A DNA stretch of 64,000 nucleotides from Candidatus Gastranaerophilales bacterium (GTDB lineage Bacteria > Cyanobacteriota > Vampirovibrionia > Gastranaerophilales > Gastranaerophilaceae): contig CALVGZ010000005.1 of NCBI GenBank assembly GCA_944327225.1, forward strand, positions 1-64,000, given 5' to 3'. Shown one piece after another: positions 873-23,337 of this stretch (position 1 is its first letter; each line of letters begins with the position of its first letter). Under the pieces are notes generated by a model. It had not been told where the DNA came from and did no database searches. It was given only the letters and a program-made list of their open reading frames with translations. The position numbers and the translations under genes were made by a program.

Positions 873-2087
873 TTATTTAACAAATACTTTGTGAAAAACT
901 TTTTTGCCTTTTTTGATTTTTAATCCTTTTTTTAAGTCATTAACTGATAATTTGTAATCAAATGATAAAATTTTATTGTCATTGATACTTATTCCGCCTT
1001 GTGAAATTAAACGTTTCGCTTCTCCTTTGCTTTGGCATAAACCGCAATCGACAAGTGCATCCGTTAATAAAATATTTTCGCCTTCAAAAATAAGTTCCGT
1101 TGCGGGCATATTTGAATCATCTGCTCCACCTTCAAATAATGCTCTTGCTGAGTTTTGAGCAGTAATTGCCTCGTTTTCGCCGTGAACAAGTTTGGTTAAT
1201 TCAAATGCCAGTATTTCTTTTGCCTTATTTAATTGTTCTCCATGCCAGTTTTCCATTTCTTTTATTTCTTCCAGTGAAAGAAAAGTCAACATTCTGATAC
1301 ATTTTAGAACATCTGCATCTTCAACATTCCGCCAATATTGGTAAAAATCGTAAACAGAAGTTTTATTTTTATCTAACCATATTGCACCAGAAGCAGTTTT
1401 GCCCATTTTTTTGCCTTGAGAGTTTAAAAGTAAAGTTATTGTCATTGAATGAGCGTCACGACCTGTTTTTTTTCTGATTAAGTCAGACCCTGCCAGCATA
1501 TTTGACCATTGGTCGTCGCCTCCGAATTGTAAATTACAATCATAATGACCATTGAGATAATAAAAATCATAAGCCTGCATTATCATATAATTAAATTCAA
1601 GAAAGCTTAACCCTTTTTCCATTCTCTGTTTATAGCACTCGGCTCTCAACATATTATTTACAGAAAAACACGAACCAACTTCTCTTAAAAGCTCAACATA
1701 ATTTAATTTTAATAGCCAGTCGGCATTATTTAGCATTATAGCTTTGTCATCACCAAATTCAATAAACCTTTCCATTTGTTTTTTAAAACAAGCACAATTA
1801 TAATCGATGGTTTCTTTTGTCATCATTGAACGCATATCACTTCTTCCTGAAGGATCACCTATGTGACCTGTTCCGCCACCAATTAAAACTATGGGTCTAT
1901 TGCCTGCCATTTGGAGCCTTTTCATTAAACATAATGCCATAAAATGGCCGACATGAAGTGAATCGGCGGTAGGGTCAAAGCCTATATAAAATCTTGCACC
2001 ACCTGAATTAATGAGATTTTTGATTTCTTCTTCATTTGTTGTTTGTGCTATTAGTTGTCTTTCTTGTAATTCTTCAAATATTTTCAT
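873..2087 (-). CDS. tyrS: Tyrosyl-tRNA synthetase
   Basis: The enzyme attaches tyrosine to tRNA-Tyr in the cytoplasm. At 404 residues it has the full bacterial length. The class I signatures are visible: HVGHFMAL (HIGH motif) within ARFYIGFDPTADSLHVGH, the tyrosine pocket region MQAYDFYYLNGHYDCNLQFGGDDQW, and KMGKTASG in place of KMSKS. The C-terminal S4-like RNA-binding domain (about residues 338-404) includes LVDCGLCQSKGEAKRLISQGG. AGGA lies 8 nt before the ATG. The WG-repeat gene is 15 nt upstream on the same strand, so the two are probably cotranscribed. Confidence 0.97.
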   Translation of the reverse strand: MKIFEELQERQLIAQTTNEEEIKNLINSGGARFYIGFDPTADSLHVGHFMALCLMKRLQMAGNRPIVLIGGGTGHIGDPSGRSDMRSMMTKETIDYNCACFKKQMERFIEFGDDKAIMLNNADWLLKLNYVELLREVGSCFSVNNMLRAECYKQRMEKGLSFLEFNYMIMQAYDFYYLNGHYDCNLQFGGDDQWSNMLAGSDLIRKKTGRDAHSMTITLLLNSQGKKMGKTASGAIWLDKNKTSVYDFYQYWRNVEDADVLKCIRMLTFLSLEEIKEMENWHGEQLNKAKEILAFELTKLVHGENEAITAQNSARALFEGGADDSNMPATELIFEGENILLTDALVDCGLCQSKGEAKRLISQGGISINDNKILSFDYKLSVNDLKKGLKIKKGKKVFHKVFVK

Positions 2088-2102
2088 TTATAATTTCCTA
2101 AA

Positions 2103-2978
2103 TTAGTTCATTTGTTTTTTTAAATTTGCTTTTACGTCTGCAAAAGGACCATTGTTAGGTGCTTTTAAATTATTTATATAATTTTTTCCGTATACAAACG
2201 GAAATTTTAATAGCCAAGAGGATTTTATTAAAATTGAAGCAGTGTCTGCTCCATGAGCTAAAATTAATTCATCTATTGTTTGTTCGTATGCGGGAGAAAT
2301 CGATGAAAAAAGTTTTATCAAATAATCACTGAAGCTAACAACTCCGTATCCTGCACTTGCGATAGGATTTTCAATTATTTGAGTAATTTTAAATTGTTTA
2401 CCCGCATCATCTGAAGTTAAAATTTCTTTTGGAATTTCAATAACATCTTTATCAGGTTGAGCTATTTCGTACCAAATGCCGTCATATTGTATTTTTATAA
2501 CATTTGGTTTTGGCATATAAATATCATCTGCAACCGGGGCAAGCAATATGTCTCCATCAAAACTGATTAAACCATATTTGTAATTTTTGCATACGAGAAA
2601 CATTTTTCCATATAATATATCGATTGAAGAATATTCACGGTCTATTATTATGTTACCGTCAGAGTCTACAATCATATATTTTCCGCCAAGACCGAGTTTC
2701 GCGTATTTTCCGACATATCTTTGTGCGGATGTGTATTTTATATCAATTAGAATCCGACCGGAATTATCAATAATTCCGTATTTATTTTTGTACATACATA
2801 ACCATGAAGTATCCGCCAACCTTATTAATTTGGAATAAATCGCGTCAGTTATTTTATTTTCACCTTGAATTAAACCAAATTTGTTTTCGATACTATATGT
2901 ATTAACAATTTCTTGCAGAGCAAAAACATTTTGTACGGTAAATAAAATATAAACAATATACAAAAATATTTTTTTCAT
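2103..2978 (-). CDS. Exported WG-repeat protein
   Basis: The predicted protein has 291 residues from the ATG at 2978. That start opens a clear signal peptide (MKKIFLYIVYILFTVQNVFA), whereas an upstream in-frame ATG at 2996 would put six extra residues before it. About residues 35-150 hold three to four WG-type beta repeats, for example KNKYGIIDNSGRILI, GKYMIVDSDGNIII and NYKYGLISFDGDILL. Such repeats are known as beta-rich surface or binding modules of uncertain role. The C-terminal half (about 185-291) is not recognised and includes a Gly/Ala-poor helical tail. It lies just upstream of tyrS. A -10 box sits 6 nt before the ATG and there is no Shine-Dalgarno sequence. Confidence 0.8.
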   Translation of the reverse strand: MKKIFLYIVYILFTVQNVFALQEIVNTYSIENKFGLIQGENKITDAIYSKLIRLADTSWLCMYKNKYGIIDNSGRILIDIKYTSAQRYVGKYAKLGLGGKYMIVDSDGNIIIDREYSSIDILYGKMFLVCKNYKYGLISFDGDILLAPVADDIYMPKPNVIKIQYDGIWYEIAQPDKDVIEIPKEILTSDDAGKQFKITQIIENPIASAGYGVVSFSDYLIKLFSSISPAYEQTIDELILAHGADTASILIKSSWLLKFPFVYGKNYINNLKAPNNGPFADVKANLKKQMN

Positions 2979-2984
2979 AGAAAT

Positions 2985-2990
2985 ATCATA
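2985..2990 (-). promoter_or_regulatory. -10 box 6 nt before the WG-repeat gene
   Basis: TATGAT (2990-2985 on the minus strand) is followed by only 6 nt before the ATG at 2978. If used, the transcript would begin at or next to the start codon. No convincing -35 hexamer was found. Confidence 0.4.
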
Positions 2991-3004
2991 CCACAAATTT
3001 ATGT

Positions 3005-3010
3005 TATAAT
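3005..3010 (+). promoter_or_regulatory. -10 box 9 nt before the AsmA-like gene
   Basis: A perfect TATAAT (3005-3010) precedes the ATG at 3020 by 9 nt. There is no Shine-Dalgarno sequence, so the mRNA would be leaderless or nearly so. It faces away from the TATGAT box of the WG-repeat gene, and the whole divergent intergenic region is only 41 bp. Confidence 0.45.
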
Positions 3011-3019
3011 TTTCTTGTT

Positions 3020-5782
3020 ATGATAAATAAAAAGTCAATAATTTTAACTATTACAATATCTTTAATAGCGTTATTTGTTTTAACAATTTTCGGATATATT
3101 AGTGTATTACCAAAAGTAGCTCAGTCTAAAATTTTAAAAAAAACTTTAAGTAAAATAGTATATGATGTCACAAAGACAGATTTTGATTATGACTTCGTCG
3201 AATTAAAAACATATTTAAAACCGCAATTAGACCTTAAAATAGGTCATTTGACATTGAATAAAAAGGGAGTTGAGCTAGTTAAGCTTGAAAATTTTGAAAC
3301 ATCAGTTTCTTTTGGTGATATTTTTTTAAAAAAAATTAAATTGAACAAATTTTTAGCAACAACTCTTGTAATAAAGGCGGATAAATTAATTGAAGCATTG
3401 GAAATAGAACAACAGGAACAAAAAAAAGAACAAGAGTTTGATTGGAAAATAGATATATATGATTCAAAAATTAAACTTGATGAACTTGAACTTTCTTATA
3501 AACAAAACGGTGCAACGTTAGACTTATATTCAAGAGATATTGCTCTTGTACAAGAGGGCAATCAAAAAAATCTTGAATTTAATTTTGAATCAGTTATTTC
3601 TAAGGGTTCAAAAGTGTATGCAAATATAGCTTCATCTTCAATTAATGAGGTAAAAATTTATAGCGATAAAATATCAACGGAAAATCTAACAGTTTTAATT
3701 AATGATTCAAGGTTGTTTTTATCGTCAAATATTACTTTAAAAGATGTTATTATTAATGCAAAATCAGATAAATTTACGTTAAATGATATTTTTAATTTAA
3801 TTAATTCGAATATTGTAATACCAAACGGAGAAAAATTACTTCAGCCGCTTAAAAATCCAAGCGGAAAGGTCAGTTTTGACGTAAATTCAAATAATGGTGA
3901 ATTATCAGGTTATATAAATATTGATAACACAAAAGCTTATCTTAAAGACGTTTCTTTAATACCTGTTAATATTTCGAAAGGTAAAATTATTATCTCAAAA
4001 GATAAAATAACTTTTTCAAATTTGACTGGTTTTTACGGAAAAAATAAAAATAACGGCATTAAAATATATGGTGATATTAAAGACTATTATAAAACTTTTG
4101 ATTCCAATATAACTATAGATACGGTTATTACAAATGAATTTTTTGGGGATTATCTTGCCAAATTGATGAATAATACTGTTTTATACGCATCAAAACCTTT
4201 TGGTACAAGGATAATTTATAAATCCAAAAATAATATTATGGATATAACTTGGTTGGCAAAAATCCCTAAGGGAGTTAATTTTGGAATTAAAGAAACAAAA
4301 TCTGCGTTAAGTGATTATGATAGAGCAGTAAAAGGTGATTTTCATATTGAAGGCGATTTGTTTGATGTAAAAAATATAAATTACTATATAGCTTCGGATA
4401 TAAAAAGAGGGGTTAAAATTAAACCAATACTTATATTGGACGCAAAAATGAATCTAAAAGGCGAGTTAAAAAATGCCGGTTTTAGTTTTGGAAGAGAAAT
4501 GCCTTGTGAATTTTTAAATATTTTTACAGGTCAAAAATTGTTTAAAAAAGGTACGGTTAAGGGTGATTTACATGTTGATTTTAAAAATAACATACCAGTA
4601 CTTGATGCTAATATGGAAATTGATAAAACAATCATTCCAACTCAAAGATTGTTTATAAAACATGCTTCTCTTAAGACTAATTCCAATATTATAAATGTTG
4701 ATGCACAAGGCAGATTTAAAAGAGCAAAATATATTTTTAGCGGAAAAATCAAAAATGAACTTCAACCTCCTTTTGTAATCAAAAATTTAGCATTAGATAT
4801 TGATAATATTGATGTTGAACGTTTCATAAGTGCCGTTAATAATCAAAATAAAAATCAAACAATCGATACAACAAAAATTGAATCAGAAAATGATATTGCA
4901 AACGATAATGATAATTATATGTTTGACACAAGTCTAATAAGAATTGAAGATGGTGATTTCACTCTTCATAAGGGTAATTATAAAGATTTAACTTTTGGTA
5001 ATATTAAAGCTAAATTGACTTTAGATGAAAACGGTATTTTGGAAATAATTTCAAATAGATTCGATATAGCGAGTGGAAATTCTTCGTTATTTGTAAAATG
5101 TGATTTAAAAAATATTAAATACTATGTGAAACTGGGAGTAAAAGCAATTGATTCAAACTTGATGGCAAAGGTTTTGTTTAATCTTGGAAAAGAAATAACC
5201 GGACATGCTTCAGGATTGATTGAGCTTTATAGTGATAAAAGTTTAAAATTAAATGGTAACATAAGGTTTTTGATACTTGACGGCACAATTGGTAAAATTG
5301 GTCTTGTTGAATATGTATTAAAAATTGCTTCAGTATTTAGAAACCCTATTGCTATGATGAGTCCGGGTGCAATAATGGATATTATAAGAATTCCTGAGGG
5401 TAATTTTGATAAAATTACAGGGGAACTTGCAATTAAAGATAATGTTGTTAATAAAATAAATATTAAATCATATTCACCCACTTTAAGTGCACTTATTAAG
5501 GGTAGATTTGACATGGAAAAACATGATACATCGCTCAGGATTTATACAAGGTTCTCATCAGATAAAAAAACTATGTTTAGTTTTTTAAGAAACATATCTT
5601 TAAGTGCTCTTGCAAACAAGGTTCAAATGAATACAAGAAACGATGCTAATTATTACCAATCCGAACTTGTGGAATTGCCTGAAATAAATGTGGCTAATGA
5701 AAAAACGCAAGTATTTTTAACTCAGGTTGAAGGAGATGTTGAACATAATAATTTTCTTTCAAGTTTGAAAAAAATTAAATAG
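3020..5782 (+). CDS. AsmA-like envelope protein
   Basis: This 920-residue protein has one N-terminal membrane anchor (about residues 6-28, IILTITISLIALFVLTIFGY). A very long beta-strand-rich body with AsmA/DUF3971-type features follows: a TDFDYDFVELKTYLKPQLDLKIGHLTL segment near the start and an AsmA C-terminal-like region near 690-890 (FNLGKEITGHASGLIELYS, SPGAIMDIIRIPEGNFDKITGEL). Members of this superfamily (AsmA, TamB, YhdP) are thought to bridge the periplasm and help move phospholipids or assemble outer-membrane components. That fits the lipid A genes elsewhere in the window. It is divergently transcribed from the WG-repeat gene, and its 3' end overlaps the next convergent gene by 8 bp. 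Confidence 0.75.
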   Translation: MINKKSIILTITISLIALFVLTIFGYISVLPKVAQSKILKKTLSKIVYDVTKTDFDYDFVELKTYLKPQLDLKIGHLTLNKKGVELVKLENFETSVSFGDIFLKKIKLNKFLATTLVIKADKLIEALEIEQQEQKKEQEFDWKIDIYDSKIKLDELELSYKQNGATLDLYSRDIALVQEGNQKNLEFNFESVISKGSKVYANIASSSINEVKIYSDKISTENLTVLINDSRLFLSSNITLKDVIINAKSDKFTLNDIFNLINSNIVIPNGEKLLQPLKNPSGKVSFDVNSNNGELSGYINIDNTKAYLKDVSLIPVNISKGKIIISKDKITFSNLTGFYGKNKNNGIKIYGDIKDYYKTFDSNITIDTVITNEFFGDYLAKLMNNTVLYASKPFGTRIIYKSKNNIMDITWLAKIPKGVNFGIKETKSALSDYDRAVKGDFHIEGDLFDVKNINYYIASDIKRGVKIKPILILDAKMNLKGELKNAGFSFGREMPCEFLNIFTGQKLFKKGTVKGDLHVDFKNNIPVLDANMEIDKTIIPTQRLFIKHASLKTNSNIINVDAQGRFKRAKYIFSGKIKNELQPPFVIKNLALDIDNIDVERFISAVNNQNKNQTIDTTKIESENDIANDNDNYMFDTSLIRIEDGDFTLHKGNYKDLTFGNIKAKLTLDENGILEIISNRFDIASGNSSLFVKCDLKNIKYYVKLGVKAIDSNLMAKVLFNLGKEITGHASGLIELYSDKSLKLNGNIRFLILDGTIGKIGLVEYVLKIASVFRNPIAMMSPGAIMDIIRIPEGNFDKITGELAIKDNVVNKINIKSYSPTLSALIKGRFDMEKHDTSLRIYTRFSSDKKTMFSFLRNISLSALANKVQMNTRNDANYYQSELVELPEINVANEKTQVFLTQVEGDVEHNNFLSSLKKIK

Positions 5783-9984: not shown

Positions 9985-12900
9985 TTACCATGTAATAATT
10001 ACGGCTCCGTCTCCGCCTTTAAAATTTATATTTGCTGGTTTTAAATATTTATTTTTATATTTATCACTTGCAACTGATGCAGGAGAAGTATTTTCCGGTG
10101 TGCCGACAGAACTTGAGGGGCTTGATTTTTTGTAAATGATTCTTTGTGCAACTTTATTATTAAAGCTTGAATCAGCTGAAGCATTTACACCAAGTCTTGA
10201 ACCAAATACTTCAATTTCACCTTCGGATGTTCCAGCACCTTGAGCACCTCTGCCAAGACCTATTCCGATAATTTTGCTATTTCCTGCAAAAGACTTAATT
10301 GTGTCAAATAAGCTGTATCTAACATTTGTTGCTGAAACTTCTCTTGAATCTCTTGTTTTGCCTTCGCAACAAGTAATGCTACTGTTGTCTGAACAGGATT
10401 TATTTCTGTCATTGGCATAACATAAATCATAATTATCTGTTTTTAAGCTGCCTCTGCCGCCTTGACCGCCTTTTGCAACCAAGACTTTTTTGGCGGAAAT
10501 ATTGTTTAATCCCATTTTTATAACAGTATCCGTTCCATTTGGACCTTTTTTGCCTTTTTTCCAGCTATCATCAGACCAAACGCCACCCTTTCCAAGTTTT
10601 ACGAATAAAGAACCGTCAATTTTTGATAATTTGGTAGATGAATATTCACCTGCACTGCCTGCTTCGCCATAACCAAGGTAATTGGTTGAATATGGAATTG
10701 TCCAAGTGTAAATATAGTTGTATATTTCTGATGTTGAAGTTCCTATGCCGTAGCTATTGCCATTAAAATTATCAGTGTCGGGCATTCCTTTTCCGCCGGA
10801 CATACATTTTACAGATGTGCCGTCAGAAAAAGTACAAATGTCTTTATCAAATTTTGAAGTGTTTATTACTTCAGTTCCGTTTTTTCCGTTTTTTCCGTTT
10901 GTTATTGAACCGCTGGGAACAGGTTTGCACATAAAAGTAGTATCAAACGAGTAACATGATTTAACAGTTAAATAATTTATACTGTATCCTGAGTCACCCA
11001 TAGCTTGAACTCCGGGATGATCTCCGTCCATTGGACTGGTAGTTTGACCAGTTTCTTCATTTTTTGCATAAGATAACTCTTGAATGTATGGAGATCCGCC
11101 TTCTCCGCCAATAGAAGTAGCAGAAATTCCGTTTACGGTAGCAGAACAAGTTTTTCCGTTTTGACCGTATAAATGTTCAAAACACTTGACTCCGACATTT
11201 GCTACCCAATACTCAAGGTTTCTGGTGGTTACATTATTTCCGTTTGCACCGCTAAATCCAGATCCCAAACAACTGCTTTTAACTGAAACAGGTTTATTTG
11301 CAATTCTTCCAAGCCATACGCAACTTGGTTTTGCTCCACCGCTTCCACCATAATAGTATCTTACATACTCTGCATTTGTTCTTTCTATAGTATTATTACT
11401 TGGGCATTCAGCCGCATTTGAGCAACTGTGTTCTTTACAGCTTCCTTTTAATGTTTTATTGCCTTCTGTGCAATTATAGTACGGATTACTTGTTGGGCAA
11501 GTACATTTTCTAACTGCACAATATTTTTGTGTACTACAATTTTTTCTTGGATTGCAATAGTAATTTTTCAATGTTGTACTTGTGTATGGACAATTTGGAT
11601 CATAAATTGTTCTGCAATTATATTCACATTTTTTAGTTTGCGTGCATTCTTCTGTATACATTCCATAGTATTTTTTAATACAAGAGTTTTGATCATATTC
11701 TTTCGTTGTGATCCATTTAATAACTCCGCCGTCACCTCCTGCACCACCACAGGCAACAGCTCCTGCTCTAAATTTTCCGTCTATAATATTTTGCCAATCA
11801 AACCATTTAGGCATATCATGGATTTCTGCTACTTGTGTTTGAGCTCCTAATATCTTTGTGTAGTCGAGTAATTCGTGAGGCAGAATCATGCCTGTTCTAA
11901 CATCCGTTTTAACAGTTATTGTACCGTTTGATGCGTTAAGCAATATATAAGTATCATTATTTATAAATTCACTTGGTCTGTTTGCTGTACTTATATTTGT
12001 TTTATAAGTTATTTTAACGATTTGAGAATCGCTCAAATTTGCAAGATTATTCAAACCTTTGTTTTTTGCGACTTGTCTAAATCTGTTTGCCAATTGTTTT
12101 TTCATTATTTCTATTTGGTTAGAATTTGCTGTTTTTGGGTTAACATTTGCATTTAATGATGATTCATTTGGCCCGCCTCCGGCGCCACCACCGCCAACAG
12201 CATGTAATACAACATTTGCGGCATTTTCAGGTGGAGTAAAATGTCCGACAAAATCCCCGTTACTGTCTTGTTGTAATGGTCTGTCTATAATTTCTTTTGA
12301 ACCGCTTATTACTTTTTCCCAAGGAATTGTGATAACGTTTCCGTCATAATTTCCGGAAGATGCTTTTATGTGCCATAAAGGATTATTTGTTGATGGATTA
12401 TTTTTTGTATATTTTTCTGTCAAATTACCTTCAATAATTTTATTTTTGGATTTATCAAGTGTTTCTCCGTTTTTATCAGGTATAAAGGTTGTAACGCCGT
12501 TTACTACTTTTACAATACCTTTTTCGTAGGTAATTTGAGGATTTTCAAATATATATTTACTGTCTTCTTTTACAATTTCTTCTTTACCGTTTATTTTAAT
12601 TTTAGCTTTTGTAATATGACCGTCTTTATCTTTTATGGGGGTAGCCTCTGTTATTTCTTCATATAAGGTTGATTTTTTTTCTCCGCTTTCAGTGGGAATG
12701 CTTCCCGTTATTGATTTATATTCGGAATCATCTTTTTTTTGATAAACAATTAAATCATCTTTTGTTGTCGAATCAGTAACCTTTTCATAGCCAATTACTC
12801 CGCCACCAACAGAATCTTCGCTTTTTACCGTTAGAATCCATAAATCATTTTTAGTTTCAGGATTTTGTTTTTCAAATTTTGATGTAATATTGCCTTCGAT

Positions 12901-13473
12901 TACTCGATTTTTAGATTTATCAAGTATTTTTCCGTCATTTGAAACATATTTATATGTTGGATCTTCAAATATATATTTGTTTCCTGCAACATAAGTTTCT
13001 ACTTTGCCGTTTACGTTTTTTTTGGCTACTGTTATTGTCCCGTCTTCATTTTCAACAGGGGTTACTCCGGAAATTTCTTCATATATTGTTGAGGTTTTAC
13101 CTGTACCTTCAACAGGTTCTTTGCCTGTCATTTTTTTATAGAAATTTTTATCTTTTTTTTCGTATACAGTAACTGTGCTTGCAGCTGCAGAGGGGTCTTT
13201 TTCTTTTTTGTAATTTGAAATGTTGTCTGAATTGTCAAGATTTTCCGGAACTCTACTTGGACCGAATGTCAAAACTTCTTTTGTATAAATTTCATATCTT
13301 CCGTGACTTCCGCCACCAAGGGCTGCACCAATATCCGAATTATTAATAATTTTTCTCGTAATTATCGGAGTAACAGAGGCTACAACCACTGCTAAAACCG
13401 TAATCATGATAATTGTTTCCATTAAGGAAAATCCATGTTTTTTCTTTTGATTTTTTGTCATTTCTTTTACCAT
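9985..13473 (-). CDS. Giant glycine- and cysteine-rich prepilin (1162 residues)
   Basis: The protein opens with a canonical prepilin leader, KKKHG|FSLMETIIMITVLAV, with Gly at -1 and Glu at +5, but is about six times longer than a normal pilin. Residues 100-231 and 241-388 are a diverged tandem duplication (VYEKKDKNFYKKMTGKEP against VYQKKDDSEYKSITGSIP, both with YEEI, KYIFE, LDKSKN and IIEGN/VIEGN). About 420-450 start a glycine-rich domain (VVLHAVGGGGAGGG). About 590-720 form a cysteine-dense insertion. The remainder is Gly/Ser-rich with short collagen-like runs (GKNGKNG, GKKGPNG). It ends GAVIITW. Expected location is the cell surface, tethered by the pilin helix. The start is taken at the ATG overlapping the upstream stop (ATGGTAA); an ATG four codons later is an alternative. 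A role as adhesin is inference. Confidence 0.8.
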   Translation of the reverse strand: MVKEMTKNQKKKHGFSLMETIIMITVLAVVVASVTPIITRKIINNSDIGAALGGGSHGRYEIYTKEVLTFGPSRVPENLDNSDNISNYKKEKDPSAAASTVTVYEKKDKNFYKKMTGKEPVEGTGKTSTIYEEISGVTPVENEDGTITVAKKNVNGKVETYVAGNKYIFEDPTYKYVSNDGKILDKSKNRVIEGNITSKFEKQNPETKNDLWILTVKSEDSVGGGVIGYEKVTDSTTKDDLIVYQKKDDSEYKSITGSIPTESGEKKSTLYEEITEATPIKDKDGHITKAKIKINGKEEIVKEDSKYIFENPQITYEKGIVKVVNGVTTFIPDKNGETLDKSKNKIIEGNLTEKYTKNNPSTNNPLWHIKASSGNYDGNVITIPWEKVISGSKEIIDRPLQQDSNGDFVGHFTPPENAANVVLHAVGGGGAGGGPNESSLNANVNPKTANSNQIEIMKKQLANRFRQVAKNKGLNNLANLSDSQIVKITYKTNISTANRPSEFINNDTYILLNASNGTITVKTDVRTGMILPHELLDYTKILGAQTQVAEIHDMPKWFDWQNIIDGKFRAGAVACGGAGGDGGVIKWITTKEYDQNSCIKKYYGMYTEECTQTKKCEYNCRTIYDPNCPYTSTTLKNYYCNPRKNCSTQKYCAVRKCTCPTSNPYYNCTEGNKTLKGSCKEHSCSNAAECPSNNTIERTNAEYVRYYYGGSGGAKPSCVWLGRIANKPVSVKSSCLGSGFSGANGNNVTTRNLEYWVANVGVKCFEHLYGQNGKTCSATVNGISATSIGGEGGSPYIQELSYAKNEETGQTTSPMDGDHPGVQAMGDSGYSINYLTVKSCYSFDTTFMCKPVPSGSITNGKNGKNGTEVINTSKFDKDICTFSDGTSVKCMSGGKGMPDTDNFNGNSYGIGTSTSEIYNYIYTWTIPYSTNYLGYGEAGSAGEYSSTKLSKIDGSLFVKLGKGGVWSDDSWKKGKKGPNGTDTVIKMGLNNISAKKVLVAKGGQGGRGSLKTDNYDLCYANDRNKSCSDNSSITCCEGKTRDSREVSATNVRYSLFDTIKSFAGNSKIIGIGLGRGAQGAGTSEGEIEVFGSRLGVNASADSSFNNKVAQRIIYKKSSPSSSVGTPENTSPASVASDKYKNKYLKPANINFKGGDGAVIITW

Positions 13474-19616: not shown

Positions 19617-19642
19617 AAAAAGCCCCGCCAGGGGCTTTTTTT
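19617..19642. terminator. Terminator after the His/Cys-rich protein gene
   Basis: AAAAAGCCCC (19617-19626) and GGGGCTTTTT (19631-19640) form a 10-bp stem with loop GCCA. On the minus strand it follows the stop at 19641 directly and ends in a T-run. It can also act on the plus strand. Confidence 0.85.
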
Positions 19643-19982
19643 AGTCTTCTATTTCCGGTTTTGGTTCAGGAGGTTTGGGCATTCCTTCCATATTTTTTAC
19701 CATTTTTTTTATCATTTTTTTATGACATGGACAATCACAATTATGTCTTTTAAAATGTTTCATGTGGTGTCCTGCATAAGGATGACCATAAGCCCCGACC
19801 ATTGGTGTTATCGGACCTATGGGAGCCGATGGAAGCGGTGGTTTGTTGAGTGCGGCAAATAAGCTTAATGCACAAAATACACCTACAAAACTTCCCCCTG
19901 CAATAATTAAAAATTTCCTAAAACTTTTTGATTTACAAAAACATTCTTCTTTAATTTCTGTTTCTTTAATTTCTTCAGTCAT
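19641..19982 (-). CDS. Small membrane-anchored His/Cys/Pro-rich protein
   Basis: The 113-residue protein has a short acidic N-terminus with ECFCKSK (Cys14, Cys16) and one membrane helix (about residues 25-45, LIIAGGSFVGVFCALSLFAA). A Pro-rich linker (KPPLPSAPIGPITP) and a His/Cys cluster follow, written HPYAGHHMKHFKRH then NCDCPCHKK. The tail is Lys/Met-rich, then Pro/Glu. The cluster has the look of a metal-binding site, but no named family is recognised and metal binding is inference. GGAG precedes the ATG, and a strong terminator follows. It is monocistronic. Confidence 0.7.
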   Translation of the reverse strand: MTEEIKETEIKEECFCKSKSFRKFLIIAGGSFVGVFCALSLFAALNKPPLPSAPIGPITPMVGAYGHPYAGHHMKHFKRHNCDCPCHKKMIKKMVKNMEGMPKPPEPKPEIED

Positions 19983-20117
19983 TTTTTACTCCTTTTTTTA
20001 AAAATTTGTAAACACATACTACGTACTCTTAAACGAAATCAAAATTAATTTGTTCATTTTTAAAATAACTTTTTTAAAATAAAAAAACAATTACTCTTTT
20101 GAAGGATATATATGATT

Positions 20118-21839
20118 TTATTTTTTTATGTCGTATAAAAAAGAAGAAATATTTTTTATGTTATTTAAAACATGATTCACGCCCAGATGTCTGTAGTTAT
20201 TAAGCATAATGTTATTATCTGCAAAAGGTGGGATAACACCGATTGATTCTACATCTGCGGAGTTGGCCGCAATAATGTCATCGACACTGCTTCCTAAATA
20301 TTTAATTGTTTTGTAGGGACAATGTTTTAATATTTCATATACGCCTTTTGGGTTTGGTTTTAACATACTTTTTGGTAAATCATCACTTGTTATATAAAAA
20401 TAAAAATATTTATCTATATCAAATTTTTTAAGAGTGTATTTAACTTCTTCCATCAAGCGGCCCGAAAATATAACCATGTCATAATTTTTAGATAATTCTT
20501 CAAAGGTTTCTTTTGATATTAAAAGCTTTTCTTCATCGATATATTCGGTAAGAATATTTTGAAAAACAGTTATGATTTCACCTAATTCAATATCTTTATC
20601 GTGAATTGATAATAAATATCTAACCGTTTCCCAGTTACAACTCATTTTTCCTTGATTTTTAGTCATAATGACTTCATTGAGTGAAATTTCATAACCTAAA
20701 AAATATTCGACCGTTTTAATTATTGTCTTTAAATATGATTCCGTTGAATCTACTATTATTCCGTCTAAATTAAAAATAAGCACGTCTTTTTTGACTAAAA
20801 GTTCTGATATATATTTTATTCCGCCTAATTTTGGTACAGTAATTCTTAAAAAAGTTGAATAAGAATCGTCATTAAAAAAGTTTTTAACTATTATGCCGGA
20901 TTTTTTGAATTTTTCATAATAAAATTTAGTGTAGTGACTAAAATCACAAAATATAAAATTACCTTCGCTTTTATAAGGCTTAAATCCTTTTTCATTTAAA
21001 ACATTATGAAATATTTTCCTTGCATTTAGATTTTGTTCTTTTATTTCCTCTATTCTTTTTTCATCATTTAAAACGGAATTTGCACAATTTAGGGCTATGG
21101 AATTTACACTATAAGGTAAAATAACTTTTTTTAAATTTTTAATAATTTCAAAATCTGCCACTGCAATTCCAAATCTTAATCCGGCTAATGCAAAATCTAT
21201 GGAAAAAGATTTGACAACAACGACGTTACTATATTTTTTGATTAAATCCGTATAATCCAAAAAAGTCGCATTATCGGAAAAATTAATATAAGTGCAATCT
21301 ATTATAAAAAGACAGTCAGGGAAGCTATGAAGTAAAATCTCAATAACGGAAGCTTTTGCAAGTTCTCCTGTAGGATTATTCGGGGTGGCTATATATATAA
21401 CTTTTGTTTTTTCCGATATATTATTTGCAATTTTCTTATAATCAAAAACAAATTTTTCATCATAATCGATAAATTTGACTTTTGAGCCGATGATTTTTGC
21501 ATAAATTTGTGCTGCAGTATAAGTCGGCCTATATGATAATAATTCATTATCAAAATCCAAATAAGCATTTAATATGACTTTTATTGCCTCATTGCAACCG
21601 TTTGTGAGTAAAATATTCTCTTTTAATATATTGTAATTTTTGGAGACTTTATCTAATGTTTTTCCATAAGATGGATATAATGAAATATCAGCAGTGTCTA
21701 TATTTTTAATAGTGCTTAAAGCAAAATTTGAAGGACCATATAAATTTTCATTTAAGTTTAATTTTAAACGCCAATCAAATTTATTTTCATCAATTTCATA
21801 AGAAAAAATATTCTCAATGGTTTTCCTTGGTTTGACCAT
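20118..21839 (-). CDS. HisC-like aminotransferase fused to a HAD domain, both active sites degenerate
   Basis: This 573-residue two-domain protein joins a fold-type I aminotransferase (residues 1-345) to a HAD phosphatase-like domain (350-573). The first part follows histidinol-phosphate aminotransferases closely: NENLYGPS near 27, TNGCNEA, YRPTYTAAQ, ATPNNPTG, IIDCTYINFSD, ALAGLRFG and FLRITVP. However, the Schiff-base lysine of the S-F-S-K motif is Ile214 (KSFSIDFALAGLR). In the HAD part the nucleophile Asp is Asn357 (IFNLDGIIVDS), and the first motif IV Asp is Ser517 (YLGSSVDDII). Motif II Ser (FSGR) and the motif III Lys (LKPNPKG) remain. PLP chemistry and phosphoryl transfer by the usual mechanisms therefore look impossible. 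A TATAAT box lies 6 nt before the ATG. Non-catalytic binding or regulation is inferred. Confidence 0.8.
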   Translation of the reverse strand: MVKPRKTIENIFSYEIDENKFDWRLKLNLNENLYGPSNFALSTIKNIDTADISLYPSYGKTLDKVSKNYNILKENILLTNGCNEAIKVILNAYLDFDNELLSYRPTYTAAQIYAKIIGSKVKFIDYDEKFVFDYKKIANNISEKTKVIYIATPNNPTGELAKASVIEILLHSFPDCLFIIDCTYINFSDNATFLDYTDLIKKYSNVVVVKSFSIDFALAGLRFGIAVADFEIIKNLKKVILPYSVNSIALNCANSVLNDEKRIEEIKEQNLNARKIFHNVLNEKGFKPYKSEGNFIFCDFSHYTKFYYEKFKKSGIIVKNFFNDDSYSTFLRITVPKLGGIKYISELLVKKDVLIFNLDGIIVDSTESYLKTIIKTVEYFLGYEISLNEVIMTKNQGKMSCNWETVRYLLSIHDKDIELGEIITVFQNILTEYIDEEKLLISKETFEELSKNYDMVIFSGRLMEEVKYTLKKFDIDKYFYFYITSDDLPKSMLKPNPKGVYEILKHCPYKTIKYLGSSVDDIIAANSADVESIGVIPPFADNNIMLNNYRHLGVNHVLNNIKNISSFLYDIKK

Positions 21840-21845
21840 AGGAAG

Positions 21846-21851
21846 ATTATA
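21846..21851 (-). promoter_or_regulatory. -10 box 6 nt before the HisC-HAD fusion gene
   Basis: A perfect TATAAT (21851-21846 on the minus strand) is followed by CTTCCT and then ATG. There is no Shine-Dalgarno sequence, so the transcript is probably leaderless. Confidence 0.45.
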
Positions 21852-21864
21852 CTATATATGTATT

Positions 21865-22662
21865 TTAGTGTCGAGCATAGTATGTTTTTTCTTGTACTTC
21901 AATTCTTATATTTGCAAGTTCTATATCATCATAGTCGACATACTCCGTTTGAAACAGGTTTCTTCCTGTTTTGATTACGAGTTCATTTGTATCTTTTAAT
22001 ATGCTTTTATTAACCGTAATTGTGTGATTATCTCCATTTACTTCAAGAATAGCAATTTTATGTCCGTTTACGAAAACTTCTGCAGGACTTGAATATACCT
22101 TTGCGATTCTGTTTTGACCTAATTGTTTTGCTTTTTTGGTATCAAGACCAATTATTGTTCCTATTTTTATTACAACGTCTTGATTTGCTCCGGCAGCCGG
22201 TCTTTTGAATGTTTGAGACAAGTAATGCCCTTTGGCATTTAATTTAAAATCACCGCTGTTTGCGGAATTATCGGAAAATAAATTATCACCTAAATGTATT
22301 ACGCCATCTGTAATTTGCATGTCAAATGGGCTTGTTTGTTCAATACCGAGTTTTAGCGGATTTTTTAATACGCTGTTATCAACTGTCAATGAAAAAACTT
22401 TATAACCTTCTTTTTCAACAAAAAGAACCGTCTTATCGCTAATATCGGCATTTAATTGAAAAGTACCGTCTTTATCGGAATAAGTTGTATAATGAATTTC
22501 CGGAATTGTTATTTTTGCATTACTCAAGCCTTTTTGAGTTTTTGAATCTATAATTTTATTTTGATAATTTGTATCGTATCTGTCAACCTTGCCGGAAATT
22601 ACATCTGCAAAAACAAATTGAGATACAAAACAAAAATAAATAATTAATAATATTTTTTTCAT
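21865..22662 (-). CDS. Exported protein with a carboxypeptidase-regulatory-like beta domain
   Basis: The 265-residue protein has a signal peptide (residues 1-19, MKKILLIIYFCFVSQFVFA). Residues 35-100 (IIDSKTQKGLSNAKITIPE, then TTYSDKDGTFQLNADISDKT and LFVEKEGYKV) match the prealbumin-like carboxypeptidase regulatory fold used in many surface proteins. The C-terminal half (about 120-265) is a second beta-rich region with YLSQTFKRPAAG and AEVFVNGHKIAILEVNG, perhaps a carbohydrate-binding-like module. No enzyme motif is seen. AGAGGT lies 6 nt before the ATG. A secreted or periplasmic structural or binding protein is likely. Confidence 0.72.
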   Translation of the reverse strand: MKKILLIIYFCFVSQFVFADVISGKVDRYDTNYQNKIIDSKTQKGLSNAKITIPEIHYTTYSDKDGTFQLNADISDKTVLFVEKEGYKVFSLTVDNSVLKNPLKLGIEQTSPFDMQITDGVIHLGDNLFSDNSANSGDFKLNAKGHYLSQTFKRPAAGANQDVVIKIGTIIGLDTKKAKQLGQNRIAKVYSSPAEVFVNGHKIAILEVNGDNHTITVNKSILKDTNELVIKTGRNLFQTEYVDYDDIELANIRIEVQEKTYYARH

Positions 22663-22779: not shown

Positions 22780-23337
22780 TTATCTGTCTTGCGAAACAGG
22801 AATTATAAGTTCCTGCCCAATACTGATGGCAGCCGGATTAACTATATGATTAATCCGTTGTATTTCTAAAATTTTTGCTTCATCGTATTTGCCATAAAAC
22901 CTGTACGCTATACCGTTTAATGTATCACCTTTTTTTACAACATATTTTTCTTCAGTAACTGTGTTTTCGTTACTGTTACCAGCATCTGTACCTATAACTG
23001 CAACATCATCTTTAATATCAATAGTATTTTTAGGAGTCATAGAACATATAGAAACTATGAAAAATATGCAGCTCATAAACAATACACCTGCTATAAAACC
23101 GATTGTTAAGTATACGGCAGGAGATTTTTGATATGTTGTTTTTGTGGCATTGTGTACTTTTTGTACTCCCTTTTGTACACCACCCCACAATATATCAAGC
23201 TCATGAGCTTTTTGAGTTTTATAGTAATGATTAAGCTGTGTTCTTGTGGCTTGTTTCTTATCGTTTTGAGATAAGCTCGCAAGTACACCCATTTTTTCTC
23301 GAGTTAAGCCCGATCTATGTAATGTTGAACCTTTCAT
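22780..23337 (-). CDS. Single-pass membrane protein with a LysM domain
   Basis: The 185-residue protein has a basic cytoplasmic N-terminal part (1-70), including HRSGLTREKMGVLASLS. One membrane helix follows (about 77-99, VYLTIGFIAGVLFMSCIFFI), then a linker and a C-terminal LysM domain (about 133-181: YVVKKGDTLNGIAYRFYG, INHIVNPAAISIGQELIIP). LysM modules bind N-acetylglucosamine polymers, here probably peptidoglycan in the periplasm. Type II topology fits that. AGGA lies 7 nt before the ATG. The role may be to tether a cytoplasmic partner to the wall, but that is inference. Confidence 0.8.
   Translation of the reverse strand: MKGSTLHRSGLTREKMGVLASLSQNDKKQATRTQLNHYYKTQKAHELDILWGGVQKGVQKVHNATKTTYQKSPAVYLTIGFIAGVLFMSCIFFIVSICSMTPKNTIDIKDDVAVIGTDAGNSNENTVTEEKYVVKKGDTLNGIAYRFYGKYDEAKILEIQRINHIVNPAAISIGQELIIPVSQDR

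Follow-up and report, generated by a model that had tools for sequence, protein, structure and literature searches.

The window analyzed here, a stretch of 64,000 nucleotides from a Candidatus Gastranaerophilales metagenome-assembled genome (MAG), contains a HisC-HAD fusion gene (positions 20118–21839, minus strand) in which both catalytic centers have lost key residues, in a genome that has lost the pathway for histidine biosynthesis. We regard the encoded protein, with a probability of about 0.7 on the comparative sequence evidence, as a selected pseudoenzyme which was orphaned by the loss of the pathway and had acquired a second role before that loss. Across this genus of gut bacteria, the catalytic losses accompany the disappearance of the pathway, in a pattern seen repeatedly. 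A pseudoenzyme is typically encountered as a paralogue alongside a working copy, whereas here the sole copy of a bifunctional metabolic enzyme would have become a pseudoenzyme after its pathway vanished, with the same course repeated in sister species. As intact, intermediate and fully dead forms are all on hand, the order of events (second function, then loss of catalysis) is directly testable. A HisC annotation is thus not a proof of histidine prototrophy in MAG-based metabolic models.

Domains and catalytic residues of the fusion

The open reading frame runs uninterrupted through positions 20118–21839 on the minus strand and encodes 573 aa plus a stop codon, so the long intact frame described in an earlier sequence-only reading was confirmed. 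Two domains were identified, namely a HisC-like aminotransferase domain (residues 1–347; 20799–21839, minus strand), recognized by TIGR01141 and by matches to HisC structures, and a HAD subfamily IA domain (residues 352–573; 20121–20786, minus strand), recognized by PF13419 (6.7e-15) and TIGR01548 (2.2e-22, domain alone). The AlphaFold2 model of the fusion, built from a 50-sequence alignment, is a confident two-domain structure (mean pLDDT 93.5, pTM 0.90), which answers the structure prediction proposed in that reading. In the fold search, whose matches cover the aminotransferase half of the fusion only (residues 1–351), HisC structures (3ffh, 3get, 8bj1 and 1gex) were matched with a Z of about 43 and an rmsd of 1.8 Å. 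The protein thus resembles HisC in sequence, in its fold-type I structure, in most pocket residues and in its descent from a gene next to hisB, whereas it differs in lacking the PLP lysine, in being fused to a HAD domain and in residing in a genome without the rest of the histidine pathway. Its TIGR01141 score (E 5.1e-72, 242.7 bits) is also under the curated NCBIfam cut-off of 276.55, though many intact fusion relatives likewise score just under it.

The three substitutions on which the earlier reading was built were found at the codon level and by alignment. Codon 214 (21198–21200, minus strand) is ATA and encodes Ile at the position of the PLP lysine, aligning with that lysine in the solved HisC structures 3ffh and 3get. 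Codon 357 (20769–20771, minus strand) is AAT and encodes Asn at the position of the motif I nucleophile Asp, while codon 517 (20289–20291, minus strand) is AGC and places Ser at the first Asp of motif IV; N357 and S517 both align with Asp in histidine-prototroph relatives. Lys214, Asp357 and Asp517 are the residues which we take to be required for catalysis. The remaining motifs (NPTG, ALAGLR, LRIT, FSGR and LKPNPKG) are preserved, as had been claimed.

Remnants of both sites are nevertheless present. The aminotransferase site maintains N155, D181, Y184, R222 and R332, which, from knowledge of the family, presumably hold PLP and substrate in HisC, and the domain carries the further changes D28N, D83N, F107Y, M109A, P110A and R319K. 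The HAD site retains the second Asp of motif I (D359), the motif II Ser (S459), the motif III Lys (K494) and the two final Asp residues of motif IV (D520 and D521). Compared with HAD subfamily IA hydrolases (TIGR01548/PF13419) and histidinol phosphatases, it therefore has the family membership and the motif II Ser/Thr and motif III Lys, whereas its nucleophile is Asn357 and the acidic set of motif IV is broken by D517S.

Histidine locus ancestry and loss of the pathway

Homologues of the HisC-HAD fusion were found throughout the order Gastranaerophilales and in some other families of the class. In all 38 histidine-prototroph genomes with both genes mapped, hisB lies downstream of the fusion on the same contig and strand, mostly at a distance of about 100–260 bp and never farther than about 0.9 kb, as measured between match edges, and most of these 38 fusions contain K214, D357 and D517 together. 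From the adjacency of hisB and the catalytic residues in most prototrophs, it follows that the ancestral fusion was very probably the pathway's own transaminase and phosphatase, with the position of the gene indicating that the HAD part is a probable histidinol phosphatase of the pathway. The window protein is a vertical descendant of the HisC-HAD fusion whose gene, in relatives that make histidine, lies immediately upstream of hisB. In the window, the intergenic stretch at 19983–20117 occupies the site of hisB in the prototroph relatives and holds the deletion junction common to the clade. It is flanked by a gene for a 113-aa protein (19641–19982, minus strand), which follows hisB in prototrophs and here directly follows the fusion. 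The conserved upstream neighbors, likewise used as synteny markers, encode a CarboxypepD_reg-domain protein (21865–22662, minus strand) and a LysM-domain protein (22780–23337, minus strand).

The histidinol phosphatases treated in the passages of PMC5516325 consulted are HisB-N (HAD), the PHP-type and HisN. The intact relatives of the fusion's HAD domain are similar in sitting in the his locus and would probably catalyze the same step, whereas the present type is HAD-IA and fused to HisC, with its activity predicted, and HisB-N is fused to IGP dehydratase; those passages contain no mention of a HisC-HAD fusion. Intact HisC-HAD genes next to hisB (L005, L024 and other loci) hint at a HAD-IA histidinol phosphatase fused to HisC in the order. 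A literature search, with most subscription journals outside its scope, returned no paper on either HisC-HAD fusions or the loss of histidine synthesis in Gastranaerophilales, and no account of the present orphan.

The search of the genome for his genes, which had been suggested together with the sequence-only reading, was decisive. No hisG, hisB, hisD or hisF was detected in the window genome (G000; a MAG, 99.8% complete), among the matches to the protein the sole candidate for an intact HisC elsewhere in it was a distant aminotransferase (26%), and TIGR01141 gave five aminotransferase matches there, none over the cut-off. Because this genome cannot make histidinol phosphate, the proposal that the protein senses this compound makes little sense.

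Among the 28 species of the genus, 14 lack hisB, hisD and hisG, and 12 of these 14 retain the fusion (hereafter, orphans), compared with none of the 11 pathway-less family members from other genera (Fisher p = 2e-5, in a test which ignores relatedness). Regarding the two exceptions, the well-assembled G007 has lost the fusion while its neighbors are present, and in G020 the fusion was not found, where an assembly gap is possible because the neighbor gene is missing too. The window species belongs to clade A (G000, G001, G003, G013, G020 and G023), of which all but G020 have the fusion. Two stretches, the one behind the fusion (site of the hisB loss) and the one behind the HisA-HisI-HisE gene (site of the hisD loss), are homologous among clade A species wherever they can be read. 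These common junctions indicate that hisB and hisD were deleted once, in the ancestor of the clade, so that the divergence within clade A happened without the pathway; they also rule out recent separate losses in each species. G002 and G008 have a common deletion junction different from that of clade A. Since the backbone of the Mfd species tree is weakly supported, we give no exact number of independent pathway losses that the fusion survived, only a minimum of four.

All 12 orphans have lost both D357 and D517, and seven of them have also lost K214, which was replaced by Ile (three), Cys (two) or Ser (two). N357 and S517 are common to all five clade A fusions. I214 occurs in the window species, G013 and G008, the first two being the only clade A members whose fusion has lost the lysine, while three of the four closest relatives of the window protein (G001, G003 and G023) maintain Lys214. 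In the gene tree G013 groups with G000 (support 85), and in the Mfd tree it groups with G003 (95), so K214I may have arisen either once or twice in the clade. The alignment of homologues at 214, 357 and 517 had been proposed as a check; its pattern goes beyond chance, with N357 and S517 shared by five species and I214 by three. A sequencing or assembly error, or damage restricted to a strain, is suggested by the apparent MAG origin of most of the genomes and by ATA being one base off AAA. Such an origin is nearly inconceivable, as five species that were assembled separately all carry N357 and S517, which rules out sequencing error for these two residues, and three carry I214.

The genus prototrophs retain K214, D357 and D517 except for G005 and G011, in which the HAD domain is degenerate and its cap is missing, with K214 and hisB still there. 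The cap region (about residues 369–432) is deleted in five members in all (L020, L023, L028, L051 and L053), G005 and G011 among them. G006 (L062 and G006:C9:32253-39066) carries a degenerate native fusion and, separately, a his gene cluster whose HisC is of the ordinary stand-alone kind and which was probably acquired horizontally.

Selection on the orphaned gene and its promoter

Since the pathway was lost, purifying selection has acted on both reading frame and promoter, which bears out the earlier claim that selection maintains a non-catalytic protein, with ω far below 1, no stop codons against 33–38 expected, and a conserved promoter. As the dS values are near saturation and pairwise NG86 estimates of ω are unreliable there, codon-based maximum likelihood was used, with estimates that are rough too. 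In the orphans G000, G003 and G013, ω ranges from 0.013 to 0.023 for the HAD domain and from 0.025 to 0.042 for the aminotransferase domain, against 0.016–0.027 and 0.018–0.019, respectively, in the intact relatives, and ω = 1 was rejected in every dead pair (2ΔlnL 40–280). A neutral simulation at the Mfd fourfold-site rate gave 33–38 expected stop codons per lineage for clade A together with G012 and G014, and about 23 per lineage for G002 and G008, while none was observed in either set. The window protein thus combines catalytic residues that are gone with later purifying selection on its reading frame, as expected of a pseudoenzyme of a lost pathway.

Constraint on the orphans is clearly relaxed yet present. 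On the fixed species tree, the HAD branch lengths reach 2.4–6.4 times Mfd in orphans versus about 1.5 in most intact members, and the aminotransferase branch lengths 1.3–3.9 versus about 1.3. Of the positions that never vary among intact members and persist in 11 or all 12 of the orphans, 36 lie in the aminotransferase half and 3 in the HAD domain. They include K26, L27, N30, E31, P153, D181, Y184, N205, K210, D215, G220, N294, R332, T334 and P336, with N30, E31, P153, D181, Y184, N294 and R332 retained in 12 of 12 orphans. The PLP-phosphate cup (82–83, 105–110 and 156) and K214 are eroding. The HAD site is better kept in clade A, and the orphans that have diverged most (G012, G014, G017 and G026) have also lost the phosphate-site residue K494.

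Upstream of the ATG, a strong σ70-like promoter is predicted at 21846–21874 on the minus strand, consisting of a TATAAT −10 box (21846–21851) located 6 nt from the ATG and conserved in the genus, and, across a 17-bp spacer, a TCGACA −35 box (21869–21874) which is identical in all five clade A members with the gene. TATAAT was observed 6–7 nt upstream of the ATG in 25 of the 26 gene-bearing members of the genus, including 12 of 12 orphans, and in the outgroup G029, with G006 (TACAAT) as the single exception. It is also kept where the fusion sits apart from its usual neighbors (G012 and G015). From this spacing, a leaderless transcript is predicted for intact and orphan genes alike.

Possible roles of the orphan and a second orphaned his gene

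Our preferred account runs as follows. In the clade ancestor, hisB and hisD were deleted, with hisG and hisF gone as well, and the fusion was kept. As the fusion was spared in several separate losses within one genus, its second function would predate the pathway loss, would require the fold and some pocket residues and neither transamination nor phosphate hydrolysis, and would be what selection now acts on. The mechanism that appears likeliest, although we put it forward tentatively, is a ligand-binding or scaffolding pseudoenzyme. In it, the HAD site, with its nucleophile changed from Asp to Asn and its motif IV Asp to Ser and with D359, S459, K494, D520 and D521 kept, would hold a phosphorylated ligand uncleaved, and the HisC part would act as a binding platform. 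The clade A combination of Asn357 with S/T459, K494 and D359 may, speculatively, resemble a phosphate site that binds without cleaving. The loss of K494 in G012, G014, G017 and G026 implies that binding of a phospho-ligand is not a role common to all orphans, and it counts against the main account together with the relaxed rates and the gene loss in G007.

The main rival to binding or scaffolding, which we hold rather improbable, is that, once the pathway was gone, the aminotransferase domain was recruited to a different transamination, that G001, G003 and G023 still run it, and that the window species and G013 lost it recently. In its favor, G001, G003 and G023 have an intact K214, PLP-phosphate cup, PNNPTG and LRIT and a low aminotransferase ω, and PriA in Actinomyces shifts its specificity after pathway loss (PMC5404923). 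Yet the lysine is gone in seven of 12 orphans, in several lineages, with the reading frame and promoter still kept, and the window protein bears the six further aminotransferase changes given above. Lysine-independent PLP chemistry of the ColD type, or another altered reaction, had also been proposed, and N155, D181, Y184, R222 and R332 of the window protein would accord with it. A ColD-type enzyme has a conserved His at the lysine position, whereas the orphans have Ile, Cys, Ser or Lys at 214, a drift which leaves no His or other conserved catalytic base, and other orphans show erosion of the PLP-phosphate cup; we consider such chemistry very unlikely. Hardly more credible is a slowly decaying relict without function, to which the raised rates, the gene loss in G007 and the stepwise erosion of pocket residues would lend themselves. 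No stop codons were found against the 22–38 expected per lineage, ω = 1 is strongly rejected after the common ancestral pathway loss, and the promoter box is kept even away from the usual neighbors; neutral decay is rejected by the stop-codon simulation and dN/dS.

For a selected pseudoenzyme left behind by its pathway, the nearest published parallel appears to be PriA (SubHisA2 and SubTrpF), which Actinomycetaceae have kept under relaxed selection after losing his/trp (PMC5404923). Both cases concern a histidine-pathway enzyme that outlasts its pathway in host-associated bacteria under relaxed selection, whereas the retained PriA forms are still catalytic, monofunctional and inefficient (PMC5404923) and the window fusion has lost both active sites.

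A second orphan was observed in the window genome, namely a HisA-HisI-HisE fusion of about 410 aa from its ATG (L117, G000:C7:59000-64000, ORF 1898–3154, plus strand). It is kept without hisG, hisF and hisD in clade A and in G002 and G008, and a search in the clade A member G013 found none. With a clade A ω of 0.001–0.012, equal to or under that of prototrophs, it is retained even more tightly than HisC-HAD. Its motifs have changed in clade A (HisE ADL to AEL; HisI WTKGETSGN to RTKGEKHGN), and the HisI Cys residues are lost in G002 and G008. Use of this fusion as a TrpF substitute was ruled out, as TrpF and TrpC were found in a single species of the genus, G022. Conceivably, both fusions gained non-metabolic roles before the pathway was lost in several independent events and are now pseudoenzymes, perhaps of one complex or regulatory system, although we hold this to be doubtful.

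Elsewhere in the window, a 1162-aa ORF (9985–13473, minus strand) gave no Pfam match at E 0.001. The 113-aa protein at 19641–19982 has a His-rich middle and a Cys/His cluster, HNCDCPCHKK, and its upstream leader (19983–20117) contains a conserved AAAATGAACA...TTTCGTTT stretch which was observed in many members of the genus.
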